DNA of 39,515 bases from a virus. The notes under the pieces are model-generated. The model saw only the letters and a list, made by a program, of their open reading frames with translations. It had not been told where the DNA came from and did no database searches. Of this stretch, positions 1,252 through 12,657 are shown in pieces. The stretch covers positions 1 to 39,515 of IMG/VR virus record IMGVR_UViG_3300010354_000210; one strand, written 5' to 3'. Position 1 is the stretch's first letter; each line of letters opens with the position of its first letter. The translations under genes and the position numbers were made by a program.

Positions 1252-1569
1252 TCAAACCCAATCTAATTTTGCTGGATGATATCTTTTATCATCCGTAACT
1301 TTAATCGATTTTTGTAAATTTTCTTTTACGTATATATGGTGAACCATAGATCCTGGATATTCATCCTGAAGATATTCTGTTAATTCAATTTTTGAAGGAA
1401 TTCCATTTTCAGTTACCATAGAGATTCTATGAATGTTTCCACGATAAACGATATCTGCGGAGAACTCTTCAGTTTGTGGTTCTTGTTGACTTCCATCAAT
1501 AATCAAGGTTCCATTGAAGTCCCCTGAAATATTGATGCTTTCTTCTATAAACTCTTTGAATGTTTTCAT
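1252..1569 (-). CDS. Small cyanophage protein with MKTFKEFIEE start, paralogue of part of the upstream 496-aa protein
   Basis: This is a 105-aa protein. The frame is open back to 1620, but the ATG at 1569 is preferred: it lies one base after the TGA of the upstream gene (TGATATG), and MKTFKEFIEES is the typical N-terminus of many T4-like cyanophage proteins. A start at 1620 would overlap the upstream gene by 50 bases. Residues about 35-80 contain YRGNIHRISMVTENGIPS, followed by a YLQDEYPG segment. This lines up with residues 340-380 of the 496-aa neighbour (WRGKTYMNKMFFPQVNMPS, then IQKVYPG), so the two proteins share a small domain. Its function is unknown. It is acidic in the N-terminal half and has no membrane segment. 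Confidence 0.72.
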   Translation of the reverse strand: MKTFKEFIEESINISGDFNGTLIIDGSQQEPQTEEFSADIVYRGNIHRISMVTENGIPSKIELTEYLQDEYPGSMVHHIYVKENLQKSIKVTDDKRYHPAKLDWV

Positions 1570-1570
1570 A

Positions 1571-3061
1571 TCAGCAATTCCAGGCTCTGAGGGACTTATT
1601 GATTCTGCTATTGGGATCATTAGCAGTTTTTGATGAAGTTAGTTTCTTTTTCATACCTTTCATTCTTGCACAGAATGATGCCCTGCGGGGATTTCCAACC
1701 TTCTTTGAAGGTGCCTTAAGGTCGCTTCCAGGATTTTCACGCTCATATGATTTACGACCCTTTTCATTGAGTCCACCACTTTGATTCTTTCCTTCTTTAC
1801 GTTGCCATGCAGCAACTTCTTCGATTGTTTCTTCACCAATTGTTCCATTATTTAAAAGATAATTCTTGGATTTTTGGCGATCATAAACTTGAATCAATGG
1901 TTGTCCTGGCTCTAATCCTGCAACATTATATTGAAGAACTGTTGCTCCAGGATACACTTTTTGAATTTGGTCTGTTATTTCTCTTCTACTTGGCATATTG
2001 ACTTGTGGAAAAAACATCTTATTCATGTATGTTTTTCCACGCCAAGAAATAATTACTGAAATGATATTGCCGTTGGTTGCTGGAAGACGAACTGATTCCT
2101 CAATGGATGAAGGACATTTTTCTTTACCATGAACGGGGCAATCTTTACCCTCTTGAGTGTGAGCACATTCACTTTCTTCACCAACAGGAACACAATTTGG
2201 AACAACTTTTTTACCTTTCTTTTTCATTCCAACTTGCTTGTAACCATCCCAACATTTTTCGTCTAAGTTTAATTCCGAAAGAATTTTTTGTGCAATAGGA
2301 GATAATTCTTCACTTTTATTTCCCCAGTTAGCTGCGCCTTTTTTACGACATTTAACTAACGCACCAGATGCATATGCGCTTGGCCAAACATCATATCTTG
2401 CCTTTACCTTATGATAGCAGGCATCTTTCTTACCGCTACTTTTACCCTTTTTATCTGCCTCTTCATTCATCTCTCCACTGTCAACATAATCGGCAGCAGC
2501 ATCAAGATAATCTGCCGCTTTGGTAATCTTTGATTGAACCCATGCTTCAATTTCTCCCTCACCTTTTCCCATCTTTGCTTTCAGGCGCTTGGCAGCATTC
2601 ATGATAGTAGAGAGTTCTGAACGAGCCATTGAATACTCGTGATCTTTTTCTTCTTTCATTTTCTTTTTTGGACTATCGGTTGAAACATAGGTTGGTTTTG
2701 CAGCACCAGTTTTTTGTTGTTGTCCGGGATCTGCTTCTTTTTTTCTTTTTGCTGCAGAGCGTCTTTCTGCGGGTGTCATTGATGCTCTTTTTTCTGAAGA
2801 AACGCATTTAGGAACACCTTCTCCTGGTTCATCACTAGCGCAAGTGCCGCCAGTTACAACATTAACCCAACCAGGCTTTCCATCTTTTGATTTGCTTTGA
2901 AACCATTTATGAAGACCTTCTTCACTAATGGAAGAACCGTTTTCTTTACGAAGCATACCTTCAGGATCTACCATAAAACCAGCAGGAATTGGTTTACATT
3001 CCTTATTTGTATAACAATAGTATTGTCCCGCAGGGCAAAGCCCATTTTTTTGCTTTTTCAC
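1571..3061 (-). CDS. Cys-rich mosaic phage protein (DUF5872-like and DUF6321-like modules)
   Basis: This is a 496-aa protein with a GTG start at 3061. The ATG two bases upstream is out of frame and meets TGA at once. It looks like a string of short conserved phage modules. Residues 46-130 contain WFQSKSKDGKPGWV, then PKCVSSEKRASMT and AAKPTYVSTD. Residues 140-200 are helical (ARSELSTIMNAAKRLKAKM, then KITKAADYLDAAADYVDSGE). Residues 211-248 contain YDVWPSAYASGALVKCRKKG, which I recall as DUF5872. Residues 270-292 contain CWDGYKQVGMKKKGKKVVPN. Residues 299-317 carry CAH-x6-CPVHG-x3-CP, a possible metal site. Residues 340-380 form the domain shared with the next gene. Residues 418-496 contain GGLNEKGRKSYE, RRASFCARMKGM and the end SLRAWNC, which I recall as DUF6321. 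There are 14 cysteines and long Lys-rich linkers. Such modules recur in cyanophage and giant-virus proteins, but the function is unknown. It has its own late promoter. Confidence 0.82.
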   Translation of the reverse strand: MKKQKNGLCPAGQYYCYTNKECKPIPAGFMVDPEGMLRKENGSSISEEGLHKWFQSKSKDGKPGWVNVVTGGTCASDEPGEGVPKCVSSEKRASMTPAERRSAAKRKKEADPGQQQKTGAAKPTYVSTDSPKKKMKEEKDHEYSMARSELSTIMNAAKRLKAKMGKGEGEIEAWVQSKITKAADYLDAAADYVDSGEMNEEADKKGKSSGKKDACYHKVKARYDVWPSAYASGALVKCRKKGAANWGNKSEELSPIAQKILSELNLDEKCWDGYKQVGMKKKGKKVVPNCVPVGEESECAHTQEGKDCPVHGKEKCPSSIEESVRLPATNGNIISVIISWRGKTYMNKMFFPQVNMPSRREITDQIQKVYPGATVLQYNVAGLEPGQPLIQVYDRQKSKNYLLNNGTIGEETIEEVAAWQRKEGKNQSGGLNEKGRKSYERENPGSDLKAPSKKVGNPRRASFCARMKGMKKKLTSSKTANDPNSRINKSLRAWNC

Positions 3062-3079
3062 ATTAACGATTCTTTTTTT

Positions 3080-3087
3080 TATTTATA
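3080..3087 (-). promoter_or_regulatory. T4-type late promoter, perfect TATAAATA
   Basis: On the minus strand the octamer reads TATAAATA, identical to the T4 late -10 consensus recognised by gp55. It begins where the T-tract of the preceding terminator ends and lies 18 bases upstream of the GTG start of the 496-aa gene. This predicts a very short leader. No separate -35 is expected for this promoter class. Confidence 0.75.
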
Positions 3088-3111
3088 AAAAAAGGGGCAG
3101 TTGCCTGCCCC
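3087..3111 (-). terminator. Intrinsic terminator after the S74 fibre gene
   Basis: On the minus strand GGGGCAG, GCAA and CTGCCCC form a perfect 7-bp GC-rich stem closed by a GNRA-type tetraloop. Seven Ts follow directly. It begins 22 bases after the stop of the 1750-aa fibre gene. This is the clearest terminator in the window and probably ends the fibre-cassette transcript. Confidence 0.88.
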
Positions 3112-3133
3112 AATAAACTTATTCAGTGATTAA

Positions 3134-6100
3134 TCACTTTTTAAGTTCTTCAATTTCTGCTTTGAGAGCAGCGATCATTTCACCTTGCTCACGTACAGCA
3201 GCGATCAGAACACCGACGAGTCCGTTGTAATTAACGGTCTTATGAGTGTCACCTGTTTGTACGAGTTGTGGCAGATGTTCTTCAATTTGTTGAGCAACAA
3301 CACCACAAGTTTCAGCACCACTTGACTTCCAAGTGAAGTGTACACCTTCCAGTTTTCCAACCAGTTCAGATGCATTTTCAATTACGCGGATGTTATCCTT
3401 CAGGTTTCTATCAGAAGTTGAGTTGAAATCGGTTGCAGTAACAACACCAGTTACATTTAATCCCGATGCAAGTGAAATTGAATTAATCCACTCTGAACCA
3501 TTATAAACAAGAAGTTGACCATTCGAAGAAGATGTTAAAGTAACATCTGAAAGATCATTCAGACTATTGACTGAACCAACTCCAGTGGAAAGAGTATTGT
3601 ATGCATAGAATTCAACAACATCTCCTGCAAATGCAGCTTCATTCAGAGTAACTCCAGTTCCATTGCTTGCAGTAAACTCACTTGGAGCAAGTTTAACACC
3701 ATTAATGAATACGTCAAGGAAACCTACAGTATAGTTAACTGTGAATGAAGTTTGACCGGAAGTTGCAGTCTGAACAGAAGTTGTTCTCAGTGTTGGTAGA
3801 GAATCGGTAATTGATGCCCATGAAACACCTGTTCCAACATTCTTCAGAACATAACCAGAAGTTCCAGTGCTATTGTTAACATCTGTCAGAGTTCCATTGA
3901 TATCAATATTATTGAATGTTGAAATTCCAGATGTTGCATTTACATTACCAGTAAGATTGCCAGTTACATTACCAGTCACATTACCAGTTACATTACCAGT
4001 AAGAGGACCAACAAATGAAGTTGCAGTTACAATTCCAGTGGAATTAATGTTGACTGCAGAAATTGAACCAGTTGCAGTCAATGCAGCAACTGATGCTGTA
4101 CCAGTAATTGTTGGCGATGCAATTGTTGGCGAGGTGCCAAATACAAGTGCTCCAGAACCAGTTTCATCAGTTACGGCTGATGCCAAGTTTGCCGATGAAG
4201 GTGTTGCTAAGAATGTGGAAACGTTAGCACCAAGACCAGTAATGTTGGACAATGCCAAATTACCATTAAACGATGATGCAGTAACGGCAAGTCCTGTGGC
4301 GTTAATTCCACCAGAAGTGATCGTTACAATACCAACCCCAGATGAACCAATTCTAGCTGATAAAGATGTTGTAACACCACTAACATTTAAGTTGGTGATG
4401 TTTGCACTCGTATAAGTTGCGTTAGTACCACTGATCGTTGTAACTACTCCAGTAACAATGTTACCTGTAGTTGCATTGAGGGTTCCTAAATTACCAGTTG
4501 TATAGGTGGCAGTTGTACCACTCAGAGTCGTAACTACTCCAGTAACAATGTTGCCTGTAGTTGCATTAAGGGTTCCTAAATTACCAGTTGTATAGGTGGC
4601 AGTTGTACCACTGATCGTTGTAACTACTCCAGTAACAATGTTACCTGTAGTTGCATTAAGGGTGGATACATTTCCTGTAGTACCATTCAGATTTGTATAT
4701 GTGGCAGTTGTACCACTCAGAGTCGTAACTACTCCAGTAACAATGTTGCCTGTAGTTGCATTAAGGGTTCCTAAATTACCAGTTGTATAGGTGGCAGTTG
4801 TACCACTCAGAGTTGGAATAGTACCAATACCAGAAGCATTAATATTGGTAATTGAAAGTGAAGTTGCACTCAGAACTTCAGTACCATTAATTTTGTAGGA
4901 TTTGCCAGAAGCAAGATCAAAGTTTTCGCTTGACTTCAGAGAGTTTGATGTATTATTCCAGGTTAAGGTTTTGCGAACGTTTGCAGAACCAATTCCAATT
5001 CCGGCTCCATCAAGAACAGCATTTGTCGATGCAGTTGTAGCAACACCAACAATGAAATCTGCTAATTCGATCGTACCAGAATTTACAACGAATTGAGCAC
5101 CATCAACATAAAGATCACCTTTAATTCTAACCGCACCAGTGTTGTCTCCAACAGCAGCAGGGTCAATGGTGATAACATCTGGACCAGAAATTACATTGGT
5201 ACTAATACCAATTGCCTGACCTGAAGCACCAGTTACAAACTGAGCAGCAGTTACAATACCAGAAGCAACAACACTTGTCAGTGAAATGTTAGGATCTAAG
5301 TTGACAGTAACTGCATTAGAAGCAGCTGAAGAAGTCAGGTTTGTACCACCTGTGATTGTTAAAGTCTCAGACAGTAAATTGATAGTTTCAGAACCAGAAT
5401 CACCAGCAACTGTTAAAGCGGTGCCAACTGAAACTGTACCAGCGGCAGTTAAACGACCTCTTGAGTCAACGGTAAATGTTGGGACTGCACTAGATGAACC
5501 ATAAGAACCAGCAACGACGCCAGTTGTTGATAAACCAAGAGTAACTGCAGCGGTTTCAGAGCCAGAACCTGAAACAACGATATCTGATGAACCAGCATCA
5601 GCAACAGTGGCAACATAGTTACCTGTTGTGTCTCCGCCAAGAGCAACGCTATTTGGTTGAATTGTAGCGGCAATTGAAACATTAGACGATCCATCAAATG
5701 AGACAGATCCTGCTACGTCACCAGTGATAGCAATTGTTCTAGCGGTCTGCAGAGCAGATGCTGTGCTCGAATTACCCGTAACGTTTCCAGTTAAAGGTCC
5801 AACAAATGAAGTAGCGGTTGCAACACCAGTTACAACTACACCAGAAGCGTTAGTATCAAATGAAGTAGCATTGACTTCACCCGTTAAGTTTCCAGTTAAA
5901 GGTCCAACAAATGAAGTAGCGGTTGCAACACCAGTTACAACTACACCAGAAGCGTTAGTATCAAATGAAGCAGCATTGACTTCACCTGTTAAATTACCAG
6001 AGAAACCACCAGTAGCAGTTACTACACCAGAAGCAACAACGCTTGTCAACGAAATATTTTGATCGAGATTAATTGTTACAGCATTTGATGCAGCTGAAGA

Positions 6101-8386
6101 AGTCAGGTTTGTGCCACCAGAAATTGATAATGTTTCGTTCAAGAAATTAATGGTTTCCGAACCAGAATCTCCAGTGACTGTTAAAGCAGCACCAACTGAC
6201 GCTGTACCAGCAGCAGTTAAACGACCTCTTGAATCAACCGTAAATGTAGGAATAGCTGTAGATGAACCATAGGATCCAGCAACAACACCAGTGGTTGATA
6301 ATCCAAGAGTAACAGCTGCAGTTTCCGAACCAGAACCTGAAACAACGATATCTGATGAACCAGCATCAGCAACAGTAGCAACATAGTTACCCGTTGTGTC
6401 AGAACCTAGTGCAACACTATTTGCCTGAATTGTAGCGGCAATCGAAACATTAGACGATCCATCAAATGAGACAGATCCAGCTACATCTCCAGTAATAGCA
6501 ATTGTTCTAGCGGTCTGCAGAGCAGATGCTGTACTTGAGTTACCTGTAACGTTACCAGTTACATTACCAGTTACATTACCTGTTAAGGGACCAGAGAATG
6601 AAGTAGCGGTAGCAACACCAGTTACGATTACACCAGATGCATTAGTGTCAAACGAAGCAGCATTAACTTCACCAGTTAAGTTACCTGTGACGTTACCAGT
6701 CAGAGGACCACTAAAACTTGTTGAAGTAGTAACACCAGTTACGATTACACCAGAAGCATTTGTATCAAATGCAGCAGCATTGACTTCACCAGTTAAGTTA
6801 CCAGTTACGTTTCCAGTTACGTTTCCAGTCAGAGGACCAGAGAATGAAGTAGCGGTAGCAACACCAGTTACAACTACACCAGAAGCATTGGTATCAAATG
6901 CAGCAGCGTTAACTTCACCAGTTAAGTTTCCTGTTACATTACCAGTTACATTGCCTGTTAAGTTTCCGGAGAAACCACTAGTAGCTGTTACAACACCAGA
7001 GGCATTAACGTTAGTGATTGAAAGTGAAGTTGCACTTAAGACATCAACACCATTAATCTTATATGTTTTGCCTGAAGCAAGATTAAAGTTTTCACTAGAC
7101 TTCAGAGATGTATTTGCATTATCATAGGTTAAGGTATTATTTGGACCAATTTTAATACCAGCACCATCTGCAAGTGCATCAGTTGTTGCTGTAGAAGCAA
7201 TACCAACGATGAAATCTGCAAGTTCAATTGTTGTGGAATTGATGACGGTCTGAACACCATCAACAAACAGGTCACCCTTAATTCTTACAGCACCAGTATT
7301 ATCACCAACACCAGCAGGGTCAATGATAATTTCTGCAGGACCAGAAATTGTGCTTGTATTAATACCAATCGCTTGACCCGAAGCACCAGTTACAAACTGA
7401 GCAGCGGTAATAATTCCACTTGCCTTAACACTAGTGAGATCAATCGAAGGATCAAGATTAATTGTAACTGTGTTTGAAGCAGCTGAAGAAGTTAAGTTTG
7501 TACCACCAGCAACCGTCAAGGTTTCTGAAAGTAAATTAATATTTTCTGAACCAGAATCACCAGCAACTGTTAAAGCAGTACCAACTGAAGCTGTACCAGC
7601 AGCAGTTAAACGACCTTTTGCATCAACAGTAAATGTTGGGATTTGAGTCGATGAACCGTAAGAACCTGGAGTAACTGCAGTGTTTACGAGATCAACAGTA
7701 ATTGTATTGCTTGCTGCAGATGTAGCAACACTACCAGCAGCACCTACGATTGACAGAGTTTCTGTCAAAAGATTAATATTTTCTGAACCACTATTACCAG
7801 CAACAGTAAGTGCAGTGCCAACCGCAGCTGTACCAGCAGCAGTTAAACGACCCTTCGAATCAACAGTAAATGTTGGAATCTGAGTAGATGAACCATAAGA
7901 ACCAGCGGTAACCGCAGTATTTGCCAGAGTAAGTGCAAGACCAACGTTTGCAGTGCCATCAAATGAAACTGCAGCAGCTGTTGCATCTCCAGAAATACTG
8001 AAAGTTCTTGAAGTTTGTAATGCAGTTGCTGAACTTGCATTTCCACTTAAAGATCCAGAGAATGAAGTAGCGGTAGCAACACCAGTTACGATTACACCAG
8101 AAGCATTGGTATCAAATGCAGCAGCGTTAACTTCACCAGTTAAGTTTCCAGTTACGTTTCCTGTTAAAGGACCCTGAAAACTTCCTTCTCCAGATACTTT
8201 AAAATTAGCAGCAGTAACAATACCAGTAATTCTGGCATCACCAACAACTACAAACTTTGAATCTGGAAGTGCTGTACCAATACCAACTTTTGTTGAAGCT
8301 GAGTTGGAAGTAATTCCAATATATCTCGAACTTGCGTCCAGCTCCAAAAATGACGCAAATTGTGATAGTTCTCTATTAAATGCCAT
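3134..8386 (-). CDS. Giant repetitive tail fibre with C-terminal S74 intramolecular chaperone
   Basis: This 1750-aa protein has low complexity and is rich in Gly, Thr, Ser, Ala and Asn. Its C-terminal 93 residues are a Peptidase_S74 (endosialidase-type) chaperone. SDRNLKDNI gives the expected Ser1658/Lys1663 pair, with self-cleavage expected just before the Ser. AQQIEEHLPQLV and a terminal coiled coil (about 1735-1750) follow. In this family the chaperone trimerises the fibre and is then released. The shaft is made of repeats: NVTGNLTGEV arrays joined to AAFDTNASGV and TGVATATSFSGP units, a block of about 256 residues present twice, and four to five copies of a unit of about 30 residues. Residues about 1520-1590 hold a FLDVFINGVKLAPS module shared with the 183-aa protein. 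A strong AAAAGGAGACA Shine-Dalgarno precedes the ATG. It is likely a host-recognition or side fibre; the receptor is unknown. Confidence 0.9.
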   Translation of the reverse strand: MAFNRELSQFASFLELDASSRYIGITSNSASTKVGIGTALPDSKFVVVGDARITGIVTAANFKVSGEGSFQGPLTGNVTGNLTGEVNAAAFDTNASGVIVTGVATATSFSGSLSGNASSATALQTSRTFSISGDATAAAVSFDGTANVGLALTLANTAVTAGSYGSSTQIPTFTVDSKGRLTAAGTAAVGTALTVAGNSGSENINLLTETLSIVGAAGSVATSAASNTITVDLVNTAVTPGSYGSSTQIPTFTVDAKGRLTAAGTASVGTALTVAGDSGSENINLLSETLTVAGGTNLTSSAASNTVTINLDPSIDLTSVKASGIITAAQFVTGASGQAIGINTSTISGPAEIIIDPAGVGDNTGAVRIKGDLFVDGVQTVINSTTIELADFIVGIASTATTDALADGAGIKIGPNNTLTYDNANTSLKSSENFNLASGKTYKINGVDVLSATSLSITNVNASGVVTATSGFSGNLTGNVTGNVTGNLTGEVNAAAFDTNASGVVVTGVATATSFSGPLTGNVTGNVTGNLTGEVNAAAFDTNASGVIVTGVTTSTSFSGPLTGNVTGNLTGEVNAASFDTNASGVIVTGVATATSFSGPLTGNVTGNVTGNVTGNSSTASALQTARTIAITGDVAGSVSFDGSSNVSIAATIQANSVALGSDTTGNYVATVADAGSSDIVVSGSGSETAAVTLGLSTTGVVAGSYGSSTAIPTFTVDSRGRLTAAGTASVGAALTVTGDSGSETINFLNETLSISGGTNLTSSAASNAVTINLDQNISLTSVVASGVVTATGGFSGNLTGEVNAASFDTNASGVVVTGVATATSFVGPLTGNLTGEVNATSFDTNASGVVVTGVATATSFVGPLTGNVTGNSSTASALQTARTIAITGDVAGSVSFDGSSNVSIAATIQPNSVALGGDTTGNYVATVADAGSSDIVVSGSGSETAAVTLGLSTTGVVAGSYGSSSAVPTFTVDSRGRLTAAGTVSVGTALTVAGDSGSETINLLSETLTITGGTNLTSSAASNAVTVNLDPNISLTSVVASGIVTAAQFVTGASGQAIGISTNVISGPDVITIDPAAVGDNTGAVRIKGDLYVDGAQFVVNSGTIELADFIVGVATTASTNAVLDGAGIGIGSANVRKTLTWNNTSNSLKSSENFDLASGKSYKINGTEVLSATSLSITNINASGIGTIPTLSGTTATYTTGNLGTLNATTGNIVTGVVTTLSGTTATYTNLNGTTGNVSTLNATTGNIVTGVVTTISGTTATYTTGNLGTLNATTGNIVTGVVTTLSGTTATYTTGNLGTLNATTGNIVTGVVTTISGTNATYTSANITNLNVSGVTTSLSARIGSSGVGIVTITSGGINATGLAVTASSFNGNLALSNITGLGANVSTFLATPSSANLASAVTDETGSGALVFGTSPTIASPTITGTASVAALTATGSISAVNINSTGIVTATSFVGPLTGNVTGNVTGNVTGNLTGNVNATSGISTFNNIDINGTLTDVNNSTGTSGYVLKNVGTGVSWASITDSLPTLRTTSVQTATSGQTSFTVNYTVGFLDVFINGVKLAPSEFTASNGTGVTLNEAAFAGDVVEFYAYNTLSTGVGSVNSLNDLSDVTLTSSSNGQLLVYNGSEWINSISLASGLNVTGVVTATDFNSTSDRNLKDNIRVIENASELVGKLEGVHFTWKSSGAETCGVVAQQIEEHLPQLVQTGDTHKTVNYNGLVGVLIAAVREQGEMIAALKAEIEELKK
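4405..4815 (-). repeat. Tandem repeat of about 90 bases inside the S74 fibre gene
   Basis: The encoded unit is about 30 residues (SGTTATYTTGNLGTLN followed by ATTGNIVTGVVTT). There are about four close copies and a degenerate fifth. One copy is 35 residues long, with NLNGTTGNVS in the middle. All copies stay in frame. Near-identical DNA between copies indicates recent expansion or homogenisation. Confidence 0.85.
4815..7430 (-). repeat. Large in-frame duplications inside the S74 fibre gene
   Basis: Two long blocks are each present twice. One runs about 6550-5990 and again about 5775-5280. It encodes TARTIAITGDVAGSVSFDG and the following segment, and is offset by 768 bases (256 codons). The other runs about 7430-6985 and again about 5275-4815. 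It encodes TAAQFVTGASGQAIGI, then GDLFVDG and LASGKTYKING. They are separated by NVTGN arrays (6540-6970 and 5775-6000). A GSYGSSTQIPTFTVDSKGRL-type unit also occurs at least four times. Confidence 0.85.
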
Positions 8387-11241: not shown

Positions 11242-12657
11242 TCAGAAAGTTCCGCAGTCGATAGTTATATTGATAAGATTTCTTGTAGAACCAGTGCAAG
11301 AAATTACTTGTGAAGATCCAGCACAATCGTTAACATAGAGTGATCCAATTTCTACACTTGCATATCCAGAAGCAGATAATACACCAGAAGATTCTGAAAC
11401 TTGTGAAGCAAGAACAATTCTTGATGCACTATCATCCCAATAAACAGCTGCCTTTTTAGCAGATCCGTCAAAATAGTTTAAAAGTAAACCAAGATCAAGA
11501 TCAAGATCTGTTGATGGTGCAGAACCATTTACAAGACCAACTTCAATCAGAGCATCTTCAACAGTCAATGTTTGAGTATTGACTTGCGTTGTTGATCCGT
11601 TAACAAATAAGTCTCCACCAATGGTTAAATTACCGCTAATACTTCCAGTTGTTGCGGTAACTACGCCAGTAACTACAACCCCTGATGGATTTGTATCAAA
11701 AGCAGCGGCATCAACTTCACCAGTTAAGTTACCAGTTAAATTGCCAGAAAATCCGCCAGCAGAAGTGGTTATACCAGAAACATATAGATTATTCTCAAAA
11801 GTAGCATTTGTTCCGGCAAATCCAATAACTTTATTTCCTCCAGAATTATTAATTTGACTTGCACCAATAGTGCCCTGGAACGCTACGTTTCCACTGTTAT
11901 CATAAACAAAAAATGCATTGGTTCCATTTGCAGACTTATAATATCCACTGCTTGGACTAAAAGAATTTGCCGTTACAATTCCGGCAAATGAACCAGATTT
12001 CCATTTTTTGGATGCATTTCCAATGGTATAAGTATCATCGGTTGTCGGAATTAATCCAGATGCAAATTCTCCACCGACTACAACATTATCTCCCTCTGTA
12101 TCTCCAAGACCAATTGTTCCTCCACGGAAAGTTACAACACCAACAAATTCGGAATATCCTTGTACATTTAAATTTTGACCAATTGTTACATTCTTATTAA
12201 CTCCAAGACCACCATCAATTTGCACTGAACCACTGTTAGCATTTCCAAGTTCGTTATCTGTCGTATCAGTAAAGTTTACTATACCGCTAAAAGATGCACT
12301 TGATGCTGGGTCTGTCCAACTTAAATTACCTGCACCATCATTTGACAGAACATAACCGGCACTTCCTTGAGATCCTGGGAGATAATAAGTAACAATCCCA
12401 GCAAGAGAAGCAGGAGATGCAAGAGTTATAAAACTTGAACCATTATCAGATGCTTCTACAAGATTAACACCACTACCAGTTGTTGAAGTTCCCTTAGTCC
12501 AATATCTATGAGAACCAACAAACTTATTGGTTGCAGTATCTGAAGTTAAACCAACGTATAAATCATAACTATCAGTTGTAAATCCGGGTTCTCCGGCTTG
12601 CAACCCAGGAAGATTAGCTAATAATCCTCTCTTAAACTGAATAACTGGCGCAACCAT
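11242..12657 (-). CDS. Tail fibre protein
   Basis: This is a 471-aa protein. The N-terminus (IQFKRGLLANLPGLQAGEPG, then FTTDSYDLYVG) is the fibre N-terminal motif also seen in the 525-aa protein and probably docks to the virion. The shaft contains GSAGYVLSNDGAGNLSW (about 100-115), a GLIPTTDDTYTIGNASKKWK segment (about 195-215) typical of phage fibre shafts, and FSGNLTGNLTGEVDAAAFDT (about 300-320), which is shared with the S74 fibre. Residues about 335-365 (GDLFVNGSTTQVNTQTLTVE) match the GDLFVDG module of the S74 fibre. The C-terminus (NLINITIDCGTF) resembles that of the next small protein (DNKIDLDAGTF). No chaperone or enzymatic domain is visible. There is no good Shine-Dalgarno, and the upstream gap is AT-rich with a weak ACTAAATA. 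Confidence 0.85.
   Translation of the reverse strand: MVAPVIQFKRGLLANLPGLQAGEPGFTTDSYDLYVGLTSDTATNKFVGSHRYWTKGTSTTGSGVNLVEASDNGSSFITLASPASLAGIVTYYLPGSQGSAGYVLSNDGAGNLSWTDPASSASFSGIVNFTDTTDNELGNANSGSVQIDGGLGVNKNVTIGQNLNVQGYSEFVGVVTFRGGTIGLGDTEGDNVVVGGEFASGLIPTTDDTYTIGNASKKWKSGSFAGIVTANSFSPSSGYYKSANGTNAFFVYDNSGNVAFQGTIGASQINNSGGNKVIGFAGTNATFENNLYVSGITTSAGGFSGNLTGNLTGEVDAAAFDTNPSGVVVTGVVTATTGSISGNLTIGGDLFVNGSTTQVNTQTLTVEDALIEVGLVNGSAPSTDLDLDLGLLLNYFDGSAKKAAVYWDDSASRIVLASQVSESSGVLSASGYASVEIGSLYVNDCAGSSQVISCTGSTRNLINITIDCGTF

Follow-up and report, generated by a model that had tools for sequence, protein, structure and literature searches.

The locus analyzed here raises the question of what two adjoining genes, one for a large Cys-rich mosaic protein and the other for a small protein resembling one of its modules, do for the phage that carries them. 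The window, i.e., the whole 39.5-kb virus fragment that was analyzed (39,515 nucleotides), has gene matches to T4-like cyanophages (Kyanoviridae). On its minus strand, a tail-fiber-like gene (3134-8386) is followed by the mosaic gene (1571-3061; 496 aa from a GTG start, phrog_727, with a C-terminal DUF6321), a predicted polyprotein of head-internal modules, then by the small gene (1252-1569; 105 aa from the ATG at 1569, phrog_1742), which is predicted to encode an internal head protein tagged with a capsid-targeting sequence (CTS), and finally by a gene for a virion structural protein (2-1243; phrog_1645). The same order, which ends at gp17, is seen in relatives; the two genes fall within the region from head/neck to terminase, adjoining the virion structural protein. 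An earlier note on this DNA had given the two reading frames correctly (496 aa at 1571-3061 on the minus strand; 105 aa from 1569) and had left function entirely unknown, which can now be narrowed: the capsid-targeting-type leader of the small protein, the prohead-protease-type linkers of the mosaic, and data from virion proteomes suggest internal head proteins that undergo processing. The small gene has a longer alternative ORF (122 aa from 1620); PHROG_1742 and the homologues begin at the 105-aa ATG.

A single base separates the mosaic stop codon from the small-gene ATG, and the gap is 1 or -1 nt in 50 of the 56 relatives that have the small gene. Together with its phrog_1645 partner, the small gene looks like an optional cassette. 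Across related loci, which are not independent, both genes are present in 46 and neither in 33, the small gene occurs alone in 7, and phrog_1645 alone in 0. At two loci (L155 and L156), a large protein ~90% identical to that of the window has gp17 directly next to it, and the small gene and phrog_1645 are absent. Between the tail-fiber-like gene and the mosaic gene, positions 3078-3115 of the window hold a GC-rich hairpin (GGGGCAGGCAACTGCCCC) with a run of T after it on the minus strand, which, read by eye, is likely to be an intrinsic terminator.

A capsid-targeting-type leader on the small protein

The N-terminus of the small protein, MKTFKEFIEE|S, matches the T4 capsid-targeting sequence. 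In T4 IPIII, this sequence consists of the first ten residues, of which residues 4 and 7 serve targeting and residues 8 and 10 processing, and gp21 cuts after L/I-x-E (PMC9026906). The T4 proteins IPI, IPII, IPIII, and Alt follow the same leader logic as the small protein, MK-x-[FY]-xx-F-[ILM]-x-E|[SA], with ipII and ipIII starting MKTYQEFIAE|A and ipI starting MKTFKEF. In the window, the leader MKTFKEFIEE (aa 1-10, 1540-1569, minus strand; predicted cleavage after E10) is the sole match to a degenerate pattern, which gave 0 matches in 100 shuffles. Conservation among homologues is strict. In 109 of 109 distinct sequences M1, K2, F7, and E10 are invariant, residue 4 is F/Y, residue 8 is L/I/M, and the leader ends in L/I/M-x-E (IEE|S in the window), so that each of the four positions with a mapped function in T4 (4, 7, 8, and 10) is conserved; S11 is found in 106. 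These homologue counts are not independent events. Because some loci had been fetched with a pattern over the leader region, a separate check was made of the 18 homologues retrieved through the large protein, and their leader conservation is identical.

When the degenerate pattern was run at the DNA level, it gave 23 matches in 13 of 18 phage genomes, compared with 0 for the reversed pattern. Three of these are in T4 (ipII, ipIII, and gene 61.1), while the other 20, in cyanophage genomes, include phrog_1742 proteins and NMNAT-like proteins of phrog_395, whose bodies are unrelated. The T4 gene 61.1 (L234; NC_000866 18966-19130), which encodes a hypothetical protein of 54 aa, starts with the near-perfect leader MKTFKEFIKE, and its product may be an unrecognised internal head protein. 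As for the NMNAT-like proteins (T4-GC190), they combine the leader type of the small protein with an unrelated enzyme body. The S-SCSM1 NMNAT gene (88819-90048; L074/L076) starts MKSFLQFLKEA, and the same leader is seen on NMNAT/cytidylyltransferase-like proteins of the cyanophage loci L051, L061, L064, L066, and L069. Since NMNAT was detected in S-SCSM1 virions by mass spectrometry (PMC9602691) and the T4-GC190 cytidylyltransferase in S-SM1 virions (PMC3037559), among others, the leader occurs on known virion proteins, and it may explain the repeated detection of the NMNAT/cytidylyltransferase-like proteins there. T4-GC190 of S-PM2, as annotated, is without it.

The small protein thus shares with T4 IPI-III and Alt a short chain with a removable leader of ~10 residues (removal being predicted in the small protein) and a late structural neighborhood. 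In contrast to the basic T4 internal proteins, it is acidic (pI 5.0), and no sequence resemblance to them was seen beyond the leader. We therefore describe it as working like the T4 internal proteins, not as a member of the IPI/II/III family. Its homologue in S-SCSM1 carries no virion-protein annotation, although proteins this short readily escape detection. In the open-access literature, "capsid targeting sequence" and "cyanophage" co-occur in a T4 review only.

Modules and linkers of the mosaic protein

The mosaic protein was described in the earlier note as at least five short modules. We find at least eight (A to H), and 18 PHROG families match separate stretches of the protein. In order, all on the minus strand, module A (aa 7-42, 2936-3043) reads CPAGQYYCYTxKxCKPIP and keeps its three-Cys pattern in 51 of 51 copies; module B (aa 48-133, 2663-2920; phrog_12753) has the signature LxxWF...KCxSS...AKPT; module C (aa 139-196, 2474-2647) is a two-helix element, KDHExSMA...ADYxDSGE; module D (aa 210-250, 2312-2434; phrog_38880), with KKDACYHKVKxRYxVWPSAYASGALVKCRKxGAxNWG, has no DUF5872 match; and module E (aa 269-293, 2183-2257; phrog_4359), with CWxGYxxxGMKxxxGKxxPNCV, has two Cys in 109 of 109 copies. 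Module F (aa 299-316, 2114-2167) contains the CAH-x6-CPVHG-x3-CP site in which the earlier note had seen a sign of metal binding. Its Cys and His residues are indeed conserved, C-x-H-x6-C-P-x-H-G-x3-C being found in 40 of 40 module copies, and this pattern makes a metal site plausible; local AlphaFold2 confidence is low. Module G (aa 323-392, 1886-2095) is a β-β-α-β domain paralogous to the small protein, and module H (aa 416-496, 1574-1816) is DUF6321.

The order of these modules is not regular, since 118 non-redundant mosaic homologues display 41 orders or sets; DUF6321 is nevertheless the last module in all 118. The Pfam match to DUF6321 (PF19846) is unequivocal in the window (residues 424-494, E 1.8e-22, 80.2 bits vs. 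a gathering score of 28.5) and recurs in 50 of 50 homologues, so that the mosaic belongs, by its C-terminal 71 residues, with the DUF6321/phrog_727 cyanophage proteins. Of the two Pfam likenesses proposed earlier, this one holds, whereas membership of DUF5872 was rejected, there being no Pfam match at E <= 0.1 in the 50 homologues. DUF6321 has no described function and is not named in the open-access literature. It also has matches in podovirus genomes (P-SCSP1g, 11983-12192; Pelagibacter phage HTVC201P, 19912-20100), and the module is therefore not confined to T4-like phages. Further domains sit between the modules of some relatives. A DUF192 domain is present in 24 of 50 aligned homologues, and in one protein (L214:3995-6160) this domain (COG1430) occupies residues 295-396, inserted before module D. 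In 1 of the 50 (L107:3702-5999), residues 316-425 form an S-adenosylmethionine lyase (score of 30.9 vs. a Pfam cut-off of 28), an anti-restriction-type enzyme that could possibly be packaged.

Structure prediction gave a low whole-protein confidence (AlphaFold2 pTM of 0.26), and our statements on the mosaic are for this reason limited to the module level. The stretches of low pLDDT (42-61, 115-142, 191-211, 264-267, 295-304, 318-328, and 396-431) coincide with the linkers, a disorder that fits a polyprotein. When compared with the PDB by Foldseek, the whole-mosaic model returned nothing below E 0.9; profiles of both proteins gave nothing significant against the sequences of solved structures, and neither protein matches NCBIfam.

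The linkers, which are generally K- and E-rich, contain motifs of the prohead-protease type. Ten [LIVM]xE motifs are found in the window mosaic, nine of them at module edges or in linkers (47, 137, 200, 263, 268, 295, 322, 410, and 415) and the tenth (433) inside DUF6321, so that none of the seven inter-module linkers is without one. Going again from the N-terminus on the minus strand, a predicted ISE|E site (aa 45-47, 2921-2929) precedes module B, an MKE|E motif (aa 135-137, 2651-2659) precedes module C at a boundary that is weak across homologues (30%), and an MNE|E motif (aa 198-200, 2462-2470) lies between C and D. Module E is preceded by LDE|K (aa 266-268, 2258-2266), with LSE (261-263) just upstream, module F by VGE|E (aa 293-295, 2177-2185), module G by IEE|S (aa 320-322, 2096-2104), and module H by IEE|V (aa 413-415, 1817-1825), with IGE (408-410) just upstream. 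In homologues the motif is found at 89% of E starts, 72% of F starts, and 98% of G starts; for C, D, and H the share falls to 30-45%, and many G-H junctions (...LQTE|GAAW) lack a hydrophobic P3. Conservation at the start of module G is position-specific, with [VIML]320 in 49, E322 in 50, and A/S/G323 in 47 of 50 homologues, while residue 321 varies.

These motifs are enriched well beyond composition. In 180 non-redundant linkers, [LIVM]xE[AGS] occurs 126 times vs. 41.7 expected from shuffled linkers (3-fold, z 14.1), while neighboring spacings are not enriched ([LIVM]E[AGS], 0.97x; [LIVM]..E[AGS], 1.12x) and module cores are depleted (1 vs. 8.3 expected for [LIVM]xE[AGS]; 2 vs. 21 for [LI]xE). 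The reversed motif [AGS]Ex[LIVM] is raised too (1.94x), probably because the sites read (E)EAV, and this weakens the control. Repeated counting of related linkers is ruled out as a cause, since the enrichment persists after redundancy filtering, and so is a general property of the phage's proteins, since in S-SCSM1 tail/baseplate proteins are at 0.94x and non-virion ORFs at 1.00x. Among the virion-tagged proteins of S-SCSM1 (47 by the tags of the GenBank record, 45 in the paper), the mosaic homologue ranks fourth (z 2.2), behind gp22 (4.2), a virion protein of unknown function (4.2), and gp21 (2.8). That homologue, YP_010669722, itself bears the annotation "virion protein", and the paper behind the record describes mass spectrometry of virions. 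The second-ranked protein (86357-87328; L076 36357-37328), which starts MDSKTFNSLSEAY, is, judging from its sequence, likely to be another processed head protein. In cyanophage gp23, an [IL]xE site precedes PTNA in 3 of 3 sequences. The mosaic is without a capsid-targeting leader of its own.

Common descent of module G and the small protein

The paralogy between module G and the 105-aa protein proposed in the earlier note is borne out by several approaches. BLASTP aligns mosaic residues 320-397 with residues 8-96 of the small protein (E 8e-5, 28% identity), and the Smith-Waterman score of 63, vs. 31 +/- 4.5 for the null, was reached by 0 of 1000 shuffles. Against 38,880 models, the small protein (3.4e-29) and mosaic residues 326-376 (0.011) both match PHROG_1742, and a profile of ~40 small homologues matches the module in >20 large ones. 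The two share a β-β-α-β order in AlphaFold2 models, with strands 34-42 and 45-53, helix 60-70, and strand 75-81 in the small protein (core aa 34-81, 1327-1470, minus strand; 10-residue block means of 84-95 over residues 31-80), and strands 332-340 and 343-351, helix 359-369, and strand 374-380 in the mosaic. In BFVD, the small-protein model finds matches among DUF6321 proteins of cyanophages. A tree built from 113 sequences (60 copies of the module from large proteins and 53 small proteins) separates the two kinds into one clade each, with support of 99/98 and in all 200 bootstrap trees. Hence there was one old duplication with no exchange since. The earlier suggestion that gene and module exchanged by duplication is therefore right as to the duplication, while recent exchange is ruled out by the tree. 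The homology starts at IEES, at the edge of the cleavage-type site.

Probable packaging and processing, and possible cargo

We consider it reasonably likely that both genes encode proteins of the inside of the head, the small one as a CTS-tagged protein and the mosaic as a polyprotein cut by the prohead protease. The products would probably be packaged and cut, and possibly delivered into the host. The small protein would bind the gp22 scaffold core through its capsid-targeting sequence and be enclosed in the prohead, where the protease (gp21) would remove its first ten residues to leave a β-β-α-β protein of ~95 residues. The mosaic would enter as a chain of eight compact modules, with short disordered linkers between them that each carry an [LIVM]-x-E site, and be cut by gp21 into separate small peptides residing in the head. 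Because its own flanking sites would release each module, the chain could gain, lose, or reorder modules, including whole enzyme domains in some relatives, with DUF6321 always at its end, and the duplication that gave rise to module G and the small protein would have taken place at a cleavage-site boundary. A close parallel in T4 is offered by gp22 and gp67, which gp21 cuts into several fragments. They have several [LI]xE sites per protein, as the mosaic does, and it is with cyanophage gp22 that the mosaic ranks in motif enrichment. However, the fragments of gp22 and gp67 mostly leave the head, whereas the mosaic consists of folded conserved modules with site-bearing linkers, shuffled between phages.

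Much of this evidence also bears on whether the mosaic is cut at all. It might instead be packaged intact, as a multidomain internal or neck/tail accessory protein with E-rich linkers as spacers, next to a separate CTS-tagged small protein, which we regard as rather unlikely. The virion annotation of the S-SCSM1 homologue, the K and E content of the linkers, the position among tail-fiber and terminase genes, and the canonical site often missing at the G-H junction would all suit an uncut protein. Such a protein would, in contrast, leave aside an enrichment confined to a single spacing and to sequence outside the module cores, a Glu322 that is invariant between variable neighbors, and a motif content whose nearest companions are gp22 and gp21. 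It is highly improbable that the [LIVM]xE[AS] junctions are recombination relics, copied from the starts of CTS-tagged genes and without present function in the mosaic. The point at which the module G homology begins would be expected of a relic, but in a relic, the P1 Glu would not stay invariant and P3 hydrophobic while P2 drifts, and modules for which no CTS-tagged single-module relative is known, such as E, also have the site.

Very unlikely, too, is a role of these proteins in the cell, in regulation or nucleic-acid binding, with a leader resembling the T4 CTS by convergence. Nucleic acid or metal could be ligands of the basic, Cys-rich modules, and the β-β-α-β fold of the small protein has a weak likeness to those of T7 Gp2 and RNA polymerase epsilon (Foldseek prob 0.94, E 0.19; VIA Z 4.7, rmsd 3.0 over 50 residues), a common arrangement only, with no sequence similarity. 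However, the leader keeps all four mapped CTS positions and is common to the virion-detected NMNAT, while the mosaic homologue is annotated as a virion protein and the genes sit among late structural genes. An RNA polymerase inhibitor was rejected as the main explanation because these fold statistics are too weak. Since cyanomyoviruses are without alt, modA, and modB (PMC2984593), it would be interesting if a modulator of RNA polymerase were packaged.

If the mosaic is a polyprotein processed in the head, it could, more tentatively, form a modular cargo system, in which a domain placed between gp21-type sites would be co-packaged, released in the head, and delivered with the DNA. The DUF192 (24 of 50) and S-adenosylmethionine lyase (1) domains found between modules would perhaps be such cargo, and free CTS-tagged genes, such as those for NMNAT and the small β-β-α-β protein, might conceivably represent its single-cargo version. 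The T4 internal protein IPI, which is injected, counters a restriction enzyme (PMC9026906 and PMC9958956), which makes enzyme cargo in the mosaic chain a testable idea.

T4-like cyanophages abound in the ocean, and the non-DNA content of their heads is mostly unannotated. A recognizable head-targeting leader makes virion-packaged, potentially injected proteins predictable from sequence. The polyprotein reading, if true, would account for the recurrence of short Cys-rich modules, differently ordered, in one cyanophage protein after another, would assign DUF6321 proteins to head biology, and would show a route by which phages can swap head cargo through recombination.
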